Positions 3,437 through 64,000 of a stretch of DNA of 64,000 bases are shown here, one piece after another. The position numbers were made by a program, and so were the translations under genes. The notes beneath the pieces are model-generated. The model made no database searches and was not told the DNA's origin. It worked only from the letters and a program-made list of their open reading frames with translations. How positions within the stretch are numbered: position 1 is the first letter of the stretch; every line of letters begins with the position of its first letter. Source of the DNA: Candidatus Gastranaerophilales bacterium (GTDB taxonomy: Bacteria > Cyanobacteriota > Vampirovibrionia > Gastranaerophilales > Gastranaerophilaceae); contig CANPYW010000010.1 in the NCBI GenBank assembly GCA_947588745.1, positions 1 to 64,000 of the forward strand, in the 5' to 3' direction.

Positions 3437-4423
3437 TTAATATACTCCTTTTTCCATAAGTGCCATTGAAGTTTCATTCTTTCGAAGTTTTAAACCCATT
3501 TCAGGTGCTTTTCTTTCGACATAATCAAAAATTTTATAATTATAATCTTCTATTTTTTGTCCGGCTTTCGTCTGAATACCCCAGCAAAATTCCATACTTA
3601 TTTCAACTTGAGTTAAACCATATTTCTTACTTTCTGCAAGCCATTTATCAATTTCTTCATAATTATTATTAAAACCGTTTAAAATAATAAATTTTGATAC
3701 TACTTTATCTGAATTATTAAACACTTCTTTATTCTTTTTTGCAGCTTTAACATATTTGCCAAGATTTTTCATGACCTGATTATATTTATCTCTATGTTTG
3801 ATTTTTTTGTATGTTTCTTTACATCCGGAACAAACAGCAGCGGTAATTCCACCTTTTCCACGCCTTAGCAATTTTTCAACGGCTTTTGAATACCTTATGC
3901 CGCTGGTTTCACACCATACATTCATTACGTTATTATCTAAAAATAAATCAATTAGTTTTGGGAATTCTTTTAAAACACCAAGTTCGCCGCCGCCAAAATT
4001 TACGTGCAAATTATTTTTATCTATTTGATTTAGTTTATATAATTCTTTTAACGTTTTATATATTACGGGATTTCCTTCTTTTACCTTATCAGAAAACTCG
4101 CCTTTTGTTACATCACGATACGAACAATAGAAACATCCGCAATTACAATGATACCAATAATATAAATCAATTCTCTTTATTTTGTCATTTTCTTCCGCTT
4201 CGGTTTTCCTATAAATACAATCTTTACAACCTTCCGGAATTACACCTTTTTCCATACCGTCTTTAACTGATTTTCTTAAATCTGTAATCTTGTTTGCTAA
4301 TTCCACCGGATTTTCTTTGTATTCCGAAATAACCTGTCCGAGCTGAAGTGTTGTACAAAATCGAACATGAAGTTGATGAAAACTAATACAATTTAATAAA
4401 AAATTACAATAATTATTTTGCAT
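3437..4423 (-). CDS. radical SAM domain protein
   Basis: 328 residues. The cluster motif CX3CX2C is seen as CNCGCFYC near residues 93-100. It is followed by a NFGGGELGVL segment that matches the GGE SAM-binding motif. The N-terminal region holds a CKDCIYR pair that could bind metal, but no full SPASM domain is evident, so this protein is not a close copy of the paralogues at 131 and 1296. GAGAGAG precedes the ATG. It lies just upstream of the PanE-like gene on the same strand. Substrate unknown. Confidence 0.8.
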   Translation of the reverse strand: MQNNYCNFLLNCISFHQLHVRFCTTLQLGQVISEYKENPVELANKITDLRKSVKDGMEKGVIPEGCKDCIYRKTEAEENDKIKRIDLYYWYHCNCGCFYCSYRDVTKGEFSDKVKEGNPVIYKTLKELYKLNQIDKNNLHVNFGGGELGVLKEFPKLIDLFLDNNVMNVWCETSGIRYSKAVEKLLRRGKGGITAAVCSGCKETYKKIKHRDKYNQVMKNLGKYVKAAKKNKEVFNNSDKVVSKFIILNGFNNNYEEIDKWLAESKKYGLTQVEISMEFCWGIQTKAGQKIEDYNYKIFDYVERKAPEMGLKLRKNETSMALMEKGVY

Positions 4424-4481
4424 AAACTCTCTCTATTATTATTATATACAATAATATATTTTTAATAAATATTTTTTTCTC

Positions 4482-5729
4482 TTATTCTTTGCTTTCAAAA
4501 TATAATTTCTCATATTCCGTATTTTTAATATCTTTAAAATATACATATACATCATATTTATTAACACCAACATCATATCTGTTATGATTATATTTATGCA
4601 GATATTCTATATTTTGATTTACATATTTAATCAAGTCCATTCTTTGTTTTTTTAAAACATCGTTAACATTACTTTTGGTAACATATACAGTTAGGTTTTC
4701 ATCAATTTGATTTTCAAAAATACAACTTGAAATCTTTTTTCCAAGTATTGAATAATTAGGATGAAAAACATCTTGCCAGAAATATTTAAAAGAATGAGCC
4801 GTATAATAATTAACAAAAGACATATCATAAAAAGGAGTAATTGAGGCAATCCCTCTTTTAAAGGTTTCTATTGTGGAATATTTATGATCTAAATATAGTA
4901 ACGATAAATAATTAGCGTGTGAGGGTGGAATAAAATAAACTGCTTTAATATTTCGGTCTTTTAAAAAATTATAGATTTTTCTTACGTTTTTAATTCCGTC
5001 ATGTTCACACGTTATTTCATTAAAACAATAATGCCTCTTTTCATTATACAAAAATAAAAATTTATTATCGGGTTCTTTAATTTGTTCTGGATTTATATTC
5101 CCCGCCTGTTCATTATGTGTTATGTTCTTATTCCGGTCTAAATTTTCGCTCTGATTTCTGGTTTGGTGAAAATTCATATTTTCTTTTTTATCTTTATTTC
5201 TTTTCTTTAAATATAATAAAATATCGTTATAAAAATACTTTAAAGATTTTTTTGTTGAATCAAACGAAAAATATAATTTTATAATATCAGAACACAAATT
5301 GCCGGGTTTACTGGCTTTCCTCTCTGAATAACATTTAATATATCCTTGATATTCAAGTGAAACTAAAACTGTTTTTATTTCAGGATGCATTTTCAAAAAA
5401 TAACTTAATATTTCATATAATTCTAAAGAAGAAGCATAAGGCAAATTTAAAAATACAATCTTACCGTAATGATTATTTAAAAATTTTTGTATTGCAATCA
5501 TGTGTGAAGCTGAACCGCCAATTATTAAATAATCATATTTTTTATTCTTTGTTAAATTTATTGTCGTATAGTATAAATCAGGACTTAATGAAAAAAAACT
5601 TATATTGTCGCCGAAAAAAGTATCTTTAAGTATTTTTGGTGCTTCAAATCTATTCAATGAAATTATACCTATACATAACATTGAAAATATGCAAAAAAAG
5701 ATTATATTATTTCTACATAAATTTTTCAT
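4482..5729 (-). CDS. membrane-anchored SGNH/DltD-like protein
   Basis: 415 residues from the ATG at 5729; a TTG two codons upstream is not better supported. One hydrophobic segment (about residues 8-26) anchors a large extracytoplasmic domain. An IIGGS motif puts a candidate nucleophile at S73, and DVFH gives D320 and H323, matching the Ser and DxxH arrangement of SGNH/DltD/AlgJ-like proteins that work with MBOAT acyltransferases. A polar, Asn/Glu-rich insert lies near residues 180-225, and a conserved C-terminal module (VYVTKSNVNDVLKKQ) ends the protein. Paralogues are at 5793, 14759 and 17270. A role in O-acylation of a surface glycan is inference. Confidence 0.6.
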   Translation of the reverse strand: MKNLCRNNIIFFCIFSMLCIGIISLNRFEAPKILKDTFFGDNISFFSLSPDLYYTTINLTKNKKYDYLIIGGSASHMIAIQKFLNNHYGKIVFLNLPYASSLELYEILSYFLKMHPEIKTVLVSLEYQGYIKCYSERKASKPGNLCSDIIKLYFSFDSTKKSLKYFYNDILLYLKKRNKDKKENMNFHQTRNQSENLDRNKNITHNEQAGNINPEQIKEPDNKFLFLYNEKRHYCFNEITCEHDGIKNVRKIYNFLKDRNIKAVYFIPPSHANYLSLLYLDHKYSTIETFKRGIASITPFYDMSFVNYYTAHSFKYFWQDVFHPNYSILGKKISSCIFENQIDENLTVYVTKSNVNDVLKKQRMDLIKYVNQNIEYLHKYNHNRYDVGVNKYDVYVYFKDIKNTEYEKLYFESKE

Positions 5730-62650: not shown

Positions 62651-63119
62651 ATATGAACACTCGGTTTAATTTCTTTTAACCTCCATTTTACAAAGCGAAT
62701 TATTGAGCCGTTGGCGAAATAAATGAGCCTGTAAGCGATAGCTGATTATTGCGGAAAGTTCACGGAAGTTTCCGTAATTGTTTGTTTATCGTTGTTTTCA
62801 TTGATGTATTTCAGTTGTAAAGTTATGTAAAAACGGACAAGTTGCACAAGTTTTTTAAATTTTTGCAAAAGTAGTCAAACCCGGCCTTACTTTCAGATAA
62901 AATTTATAGAAAGTAAGTTTAAAAATTTGCGAACCGAGGCAATATACAAAATATCAGTTGAAAAAAATTTTACTTTTAACGGAGATATTAAGAACTAAAT
63001 AAATCTTTACATATTATAAGAAATGATTATAATGAAAGATATAAAAAAGTTAGTCTGGCAGTATAGTTATTTTATATAAAATTTTTTACTTGTAATTTAA
63101 AATAGTTGAGGATAAGAGC
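62651..63119. other. long non-coding region before the adhesin gene
   Basis: No ORF with a ribosome-binding site is seen. It contains a 9-bp inverted repeat (CTTACTTTC 62886-62894, GAAAGTAAG 62909-62917) and a good promoter at 63006-63033. A small GC-containing hairpin (ACGGAA GT TTCCGT) lies near 62770. Confidence 0.5.
63006..63033 (+). promoter_or_regulatory. promoter of the adhesin gene
   Basis: TTTACA (63006-63011) and TATAAT (63028-63033) are 16 nt apart, giving a 5' leader of about 80 nt. Confidence 0.6.
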
Positions 63120-64000
63120 ATGAAGAAAATTAAACCTGTAAATTCCCCCCCCAGTGCAGAATAGGCTTATTTAAGGAGGTTAAGTCAGGTTTTGGGCTTT
63201 TACTTGCAGTATCAATTGTATCCGTGTTTAACTTATCTTCTCTTCCCGTAAATGCCGAAGGGCCAGATACCTATTTGAAAAAAACCGATTACGGTAACGG
63301 AGATACTACTGCTTATTTCAAATGGTTACAAAACGGGAAAGGGGATTATGAGCTAGAAGTTTCAAACGATCAAGATGCTCAAATAACCGTGCATTATGAT
63401 AACAACAATAATCAAAGAAAAGTAATTGGTACCTCCCCTTTCGAAGATATAAAGCAAGAATTTGTAAACTTGGAATATAATCAAACTGAAGGCAATACTC
63501 TACAAGGCGGTGCTATATATAATGATGGTAGAAATACTATTACTAATATTATAAGTGATTTTATAAGAAACCGTGTAGATAATAACCAAGTTGACGGTGG
63601 TGCTATTGGCGGTGCTATATATAACAGTGGCAGCGGGGTAATACAAAACATAGAAGGCGATTTTATAGGAAATTATGCAAATAGTGAAACAGCTGATTCT
63701 GAAGCCGGTGCTGTATATAATGGCTGGGAAGGCACAATAAGTTATATTAAAGGTAATTTCATAGGAAATCATACATATGGTGGTGGCCAATATGTAAATG
63801 GCGGAGCCATTTCGAATTACATGTCTAAAATAAACAATATAAAGGGAAATTTTGCATATAACTATGCCCGTTCAACAAACGGTTTTGCAAGAGGCGGCGC
63901 TATATACAACAATGAAAAATCAGAAATAGAAAACATAGAAGGCGATTTTGTCGGAAATTATACTATTGGTGAAAAAGAGAATTCTTCAGGCGGTGCAATA
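63120..64000 (+). CDS. Pmp-like repeat adhesin/autotransporter, out of frame at a C8 tract (3' end outside window)
   Basis: ATG 63120 with GAGGA upstream opens MKKIKPVNSPP and hits TAG at 63162 in this allele. With one more C (or two fewer) in the C8 run at 63145-63152, the frame joins a long open frame to the window end. It then reads QCRIGLFKEVKSGFGLLL, a signal peptide cleaved after VNA, and a passenger. The passenger has repeats of GGAIYN and DFIGN about 25-35 residues apart, like the GGAI/FxxN repeats of Chlamydia Pmp proteins, expected to form a beta-helix. The 3' end probably holds a barrel. Expression in this allele is OFF unless translation slips. Confidence 0.75.
63145..63152 (+). 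repeat. C8 homopolymer tract (candidate phase-variation switch)
   Basis: Eight consecutive C's in an A+T-rich genome, nine codons into the adhesin gene. A change in length by one moves the downstream frame into or out of register. Confidence 0.8.

Follow-up and report, generated by a model that had tools for sequence, protein, structure and literature searches.

The Locus and Its Reading Frames

The window, that is, the whole stretch of DNA analysed here, comprises positions 1-64000 of a contig of 64,704 bases (contig C10; C8, C9 and C10 used of tracts denote runs of eight, nine and ten C's) belonging to a 2.0-Mb draft MAG of 63 contigs, hereafter the own genome (G000; other G numbers stand for related genomes). 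Close to its end, on the forward strand, lies the 5' part of a gene for a repeat-rich protein, preceded by a promoter-like TTTACA-16 nt-TATAAT (63006..63033, 11 of 12 consensus matches) and by a Shine-Dalgarno-like GAGG (63108..63111), conserved as AGTTGAGGAT, which stands 8 nt upstream of the ATG at 63120. As assembled, the ORF opened by this ATG (63120..63164) reads MKKIKPVNSPPSAE and closes at TAG 63162, which would be the OFF product. Eight codons 3' of the ATG is found a C8 homopolymer (63145..63152), the proposed site of slippage and the sole run of C or G longer than 5 in the window (32% GC); beyond it, in another frame, follow a signal peptide (63155..63256, CRIGLFKEVKSGFGLLLAVSIVSVFNLSSLPVNA, probably cleaved after VNA) and a passenger of GGA[ILV] and FxxN repeats (63257..64000), similar to those of the chlamydial Pmps and running on to the contig end at 64704. 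The N-terminal Sec signal peptide was called by inspection of the translation and hydropathy alone; the frame of a second locus of the own genome, on contig C51, likewise has one.

The first-pass annotation had proposed that the best start lies in another frame than the signal peptide and repeat passenger, and that the frame changes at the C8 tract; coordinates, sequence, the hydrophobic core and the probable cleavage site all agree with this. With nine C's the ATG is joined to the passenger frame and reads MKKIKPVNSPPQCRIGLFKEVKSGFGLLLAVSIVSVFNLSSLPVNA-EG, 528 codons being then open to the contig end; a change of one base in the tract alters the reading frame of the gene, and the homopolymer is therefore placed as it is in phase-variable genes. 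The passenger frame has no usable start of its own: it opens at 63134, after TAA 63131, and its earliest start codon is GTG 63224, 3' of the hydrophobic core. An internal start after AAGGAGG (63173-63179), which resembles a ribosome-binding site, was considered and discarded, since no in-frame start codon occurs until the same GTG and the motif is broken in relatives; as far as can be tested, the use of an upstream or other start does not account for the arrangement.

The Encoded Protein

The 493-residue frame of contig C10 carries 12 GGA[ILV] and 13 FxxN motifs, against means of 0.16 and 3.1 and maxima of 2 and 9 in shuffled sequences. GGA(I,L,V) and FxxN repeat motifs characterize the chlamydial Pmps, among which the poly-G tract of PmpG has been proposed to mediate phase variation (PMC4488443). 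The autotransporter architecture, the passenger repeats and the homopolymer are shared by the family described here, some members of which also reach the curated Pmp models: TIGR01376 (POMP_repeat, polymorphic outer membrane protein repeat) scores above its cut-off in a full-length homologue (L070) and in L087, and PF02415 in L011 and L087 (paralogues on contigs C20 and C36), falling below its cut-off in L070. Unlike these proteins, the C51 protein matches none of the Pmp models and the window fragment matches none above the Pfam cut-off; moreover, unlike in Chlamydia, which belongs to another phylum, the poly-C stands here eight codons past the start and before the signal peptide.

The C51 passenger is predicted to form a beta-solenoid (mean pLDDT 88), and a search of solved structures with this model gave no significant match (best E 0.28). 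The 3' end of the window gene lies beyond its contig, and the autotransporter barrel is seen in the model of a sister-species homologue (G012:C6), whose C-terminal 700 residues, as in classical type V autotransporters, are modelled as about 12 long strands preceded by a helix (mean pLDDT 65, strands mostly 80-90). The best solved matches to this model are the barrels of EspP, AIDA-I and BrkA, with E down to 3e-14 and a TM by target up to 0.82 (BrkA); unlike the classical members, the region matches neither a solved chain at the sequence level nor a Pfam autotransporter domain, and its sequence identity to the solved barrels is about 14-16%. The barrel predicted in the homologue makes it likely that the window-gene product is exported as a type V autotransporter, and analogy with the Pmps would suggest a function in adhesion. 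Contig C19, considered as a source of the 3' end of the gene, was rejected; it shows no overlap and appears to continue contig C20.

A Dispersed Promoter-Start-Tract Module

The region 62890..63144 of the forward strand, comprising promoter, leader, start and the first eight codons, is common to contigs C10 and C51 of the own genome, with a single mismatch in the 255 bp from 62890 to the tract (L010:5050-5304 at the second locus) and identity over the last 185. At the C51 locus the tract is C9 and in frame, MKKIKPVNSPPRKVFALNFKLILIASLISCLTLSAYKANA being followed by the same kind of repeats over 464 codons to the contig end. The two genes diverge 3' of the tract and both contigs end in an identical 77 bp, which has the look of an assembly-graph break at a common 3' part; from the same start region and the same end it follows that the passenger would be what sets the loci apart, the start and at least a portion of the 3' half being common to both. 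Contig C51 could derive from another strain binned into the same MAG. The gene divergent to the C51 adhesin (L010, minus-strand ORF 3601-4791; 396 residues, U32-peptidase-like by eye, with no Pfam or NCBIfam match) itself carries an in-frame C10 tract at L010:4677-4686.

Homologues of the module are found at five further loci in four sister species (G003, G010, G012 and G025; one genome per species, all draft MAGs), and the alignment thus comprises seven non-syntenic loci of five species with the tract at the same position. The sister contigs are recorded as 'Candidatus Gastranaerophilales bacterium' MAGs, isolates Lapin-004, -011 and -015, a name from which we take their source to be the rabbit gut; these records also support a placement among the Gastranaerophilales, the first reading having suggested a gut diderm of Melainabacteria type. 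What is conserved at the seven loci is the promoter, with slightly changed spacing, the leader, the GAGG, the ATG and seven or eight codons. Four further complete alleles are available from three sister species, with the downstream frame intact to the contig limits: the tract is C9 and in frame in G003, C9 and out of frame in G010 and in G012:C6 (where a frame of 1,292 codons lies 3' of it), and C10 and out of frame in G012:C50; in G025 the module is present and the contig ends within the tract. Together with the C8 (out of frame) and C9 (in frame) of the own genome, tract length therefore varies among related alleles and both frame states occur. The bases flanking the tract vary between copies, so that the in-frame length varies too, the tract itself being kept. 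Within the reach of this comparison, a fixed in-frame length is not what the relatives have; the reading of the poly-C as phase-variable gains support from these alleles, as it does from the open frame and the many similar tracts described below.

Each copy of the module adjoins different genes, presumably, from our reading of the translations, dnaK, a U32-like/AAA locus, rph, fumarase, miaB, purA and an aminopeptidase/EF-P locus; judged by its sequence, the module behaves as a dispersed cassette. This distribution, the near-identity of the C10 and C51 copies which stops at the tract and the 77-bp end shared by both contigs could also be explained if a mobile or gene-converted cassette had been fused by recombination to varied passengers at the C run, the frame being incidental. 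Such a joint leaves aside that like tracts are carried, without the module, by unrelated families (prepilins, ATP-grasp proteins, pyruvyl transferases), and that the homologous passengers, when aligned, retain their signal peptides across species; we regard it as unlikely, and recombination and slippage are in any case compatible.

Openness of the Passenger Frame

The passenger evolves fast. Between the window gene and G012:C6 there are 271 base differences over 505 codons (dN 0.20, dS 0.21), and the comparison with G003 gives dN 0.19 and dS 0.27; such high ratios mean that the amino-acid sequence is only weakly constrained, and decay is opposed solely by the frame having stayed open. A pseudogene which lost its frame once and is on its way out would indeed be out of frame, as the assembled gene is, and could show a dN/dS near 1, as is seen against one homologue. 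It would be less easily reconciled with the 515 codons 3' of the tract of this out-of-frame gene, which hold neither a stop nor a frameshift; if the frame were free, about six stops would be expected on half the divergence (taking 4.3% of single-base changes as nonsense and half of the 271 differences). Promoter, leader and start are, furthermore, conserved across species, and the C51 paralogue, whose start region is the same, reads in frame. Decay is accordingly the least probable of the explanations considered, and very improbable in itself; the passenger frame is being kept open, which fits intermittent expression.

Homopolymeric Tracts of the Own Genome

The own genome contains 29 C or G runs 8-10 long, of which four have 8, twelve 9 and thirteen 10 bases, whereas under Markov models of order 1-4 one would expect 1.8-5.5 runs of at least 8 and 0.04-0.2 of at least 10; the tracts are thus longer than chance would give. 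About ten are in frame within longer ORFs, eight break otherwise intact ORFs and the rest are intergenic or ambiguous. Many of the runs fall in surface genes. Four of the tract genes are of the TupA-like ATP-grasp type (one matched by PF14305, the other three resembling it in sequence); others encode pyruvyl transferases (PF04230), autotransporters, a prepilin, a methyltransferase and an AlgX-type SGNH protein. As far as sequence can tell, the window adhesin belongs to a large repertoire of switches of this kind.

The position of the tract differs among these genes. At L082:1464-4574 an ORF of 1,036 residues fuses IspD, epimerase and CDP-glycerol glycerophosphotransferase domains and carries a C10 and a C9 tract in frame between domains, where slippage might separate or fuse the enzymes. 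A C10 tract makes up most of the 15-nt spacer of a TTGACA-N15-TATAAT (G000:C1:10967-10993, minus strand; L073:4975-4984, L195), about 72 bases upstream of the start of a 975-residue autotransporter, and is probably a transcriptional, promoter-type switch; as a general mode the promoter-spacer poly-C was discarded, since a strict pattern retrieved just this one case on contig C1 in 58 genomes. Poly-G runs are found immediately 5' of the signal peptides of related autotransporters at L068:1941-1948 (G025), where at G8 the signal peptide is not in the frame of an upstream ATG, and at L091:4993-5001 (own contig C61), where no upstream ATG was found and the tract may occupy the ribosome-site position of a gene starting with TTG. 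Finally, at L086:5046-5118 three C9 runs are spaced by TACTTCTTCTCT-like units and adjoin the apparent end of a tRNA gene.

Distribution in the Genus and Mismatch Repair

When C or G runs of at least 8 were counted in 58 related genomes, members of the genus were found to have 0-5 in some species and 18-121 in others, two genomes standing at 9 and 13; the other families of the order have 0-15 per genome. A hypermutator state is not the origin of the high counts, because mismatch repair is kept: MutS was found in every high-tract genome and MutL in all except G028 (83% complete) and G032. Nor do the high-tract species form one clade: on the MutS tree the high state must have changed six times, and well-supported branches force at least four of these changes. 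An enrichment of tracts near contig ends, which might have been a sign of mixed lengths, is weak: G013 has 3 such tracts where 0.37 would be expected, and G019 has 3 against 0.9.

In the genome with 121 tracts (G032), 15 lie in prepilin-type genes among the 30 loci fetched (L118-L147), with a layout of ribosome site, ATG, about eight codons, a run of G9-11 (one C9) and then FTLxEVLITLVIIGIIAAITVP; as assembled, these genes are mostly out of frame. Matches to the N-methylation motif number 54-98 in G008, G019 and G032 against 3-15 in other members of the genus. A genome of another family of the order (G038) has 88 such matches and just 2 C or G tracts of at least 8, that is, a large prepilin set without the switch.

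Taken as a whole, the survey makes it reasonably probable that the homopolymer contingency repertoire of this genus ranks among the largest in any commensal lineage (C or G tracts of at least 8 numbering up to 121 in a 2-Mb genome) and would switch autotransporters, glycan genes, in some species dozens of prepilins, and at least one promoter spacer; that the autotransporters share a dispersed promoter-start-poly-C cassette; and that several losses or gains of the trait took place within the genus with mismatch repair retained.

Frame States of Tract Genes and the Proposed Switch

Six genomes (the own genome, G032, G003, G010, G012 and G017) supplied 29 start-plus-tract genes in which a ribosome site, a start codon and a frame beyond the tract could be recognized. 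Of these, 9 are in frame, 10 at +1 and 10 at +2; these counts pool species and may contain a false start in a few cases, the prepilin and adhesin starts being conserved at fixed distance. Ordinary coding sequence would give 29:0:0 and freely slipping tracts one third each.

This result bears on one objection, namely that the C8 is an artefact of assembly or sequencing and that the gene, with a real tract of C9, is always in frame. The genome is a draft MAG, indel errors occur most often in homopolymers and a single further C gives the whole protein from the best start. Runs of 8-10 are, on the other hand, short for Illumina-type reads, and the sister contigs are NODE-named, in SPAdes style; three more alleles are out of frame at this very tract, and so are 20 of the 29 tract genes at theirs, with both wrong frames equally represented, and an error would leave unexplained why such long tracts exist and why they are placed just behind start codons. 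We therefore hold an error to be quite improbable.

Homopolymers of such length can also cause transcriptional slippage. RNA polymerase or the ribosome might thus slip on the C run, a fixed C8 template yielding some full-length protein; in this way OFF alleles could keep their frame under selection, and such slippage may coexist with that of DNA. It does not explain the differences of tract length between paralogues and sister species or the even cover of all three frames, and as an alternative it appears unlikely.

The related copies of the module with other tract lengths in both frame states, the lack of stops in the out-of-frame gene, the genome-wide excess of tracts and the 9:10:10 distribution of frames all favour phase variation. 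On this sequence evidence we assign a probability of about 0.87 to the reading in which the product of the window gene is a type V autotransporter resembling the Pmps, and slipped-strand mispairing in a tract of C8-C10, eight codons past the start, turns its translation ON and OFF. According to this mechanism, slippage of the replication polymerase would add or remove C's at high frequency, about one third of the tract lengths being in frame; OFF cells would make a 14-residue peptide and ON cells would export the beta-solenoid to the surface. The changes of length would be frequent enough to render a clonal population mixed for the adhesin, and within the same population dozens of other surface genes may vary independently. 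Bet-hedging or avoidance, directed against host IgA, phage or changing attachment sites, might be the benefit, a suggestion more tentative than the preceding steps.

Relation to Known Systems and Meaning

The mechanism is already known from Neisseria, Campylobacter and the chlamydial Pmps; it is the lineage that is new. In N. meningitidis, deep sequencing of single-colony cultures found tracts of at least 8 to be predominantly variable (PMC5084427), and Neisseria genomes hold tens of G/C-tract loci, up to 90 in one N. lactamica (PMC5953494). As in Neisseria (pilC, pgl and lgt genes, promoter-spacer tracts), frame switching by G or C runs here concerns pilus, glycan and surface-protein genes, in the presence of mismatch repair; unlike in Neisseria, to which these bacteria are unrelated, the tracts are of 8-11 only, and some sister species have dozens of prepilin-type genes, many of them tract-bearing. 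Unusual features here are the dispersed start cassette, the sets of prepilins and, for some species, the scale. No paper joining Melainabacteria or Gastranaerophilales with such phase variation was found in a search outside which most subscription journals lay, and the one co-occurrence of the lineage with phase variation was in a paper on flagellin diversity.

G/C-tract phase variation has been studied mostly in pathogens of the upper airway, the genital tract and the gut. In the present case the same device would be seen at large scale, from sequence alone, in a non-photosynthetic gut lineage that neighbours the cyanobacteria, is uncultured and is not known to be pathogenic; since genomes of one genus differ from none to more than 100 tracts, the selection for contingency loci could be compared among close relatives. 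For the annotation of MAGs of this group it follows that many surface genes listed as truncated or missing may merely be out of phase.
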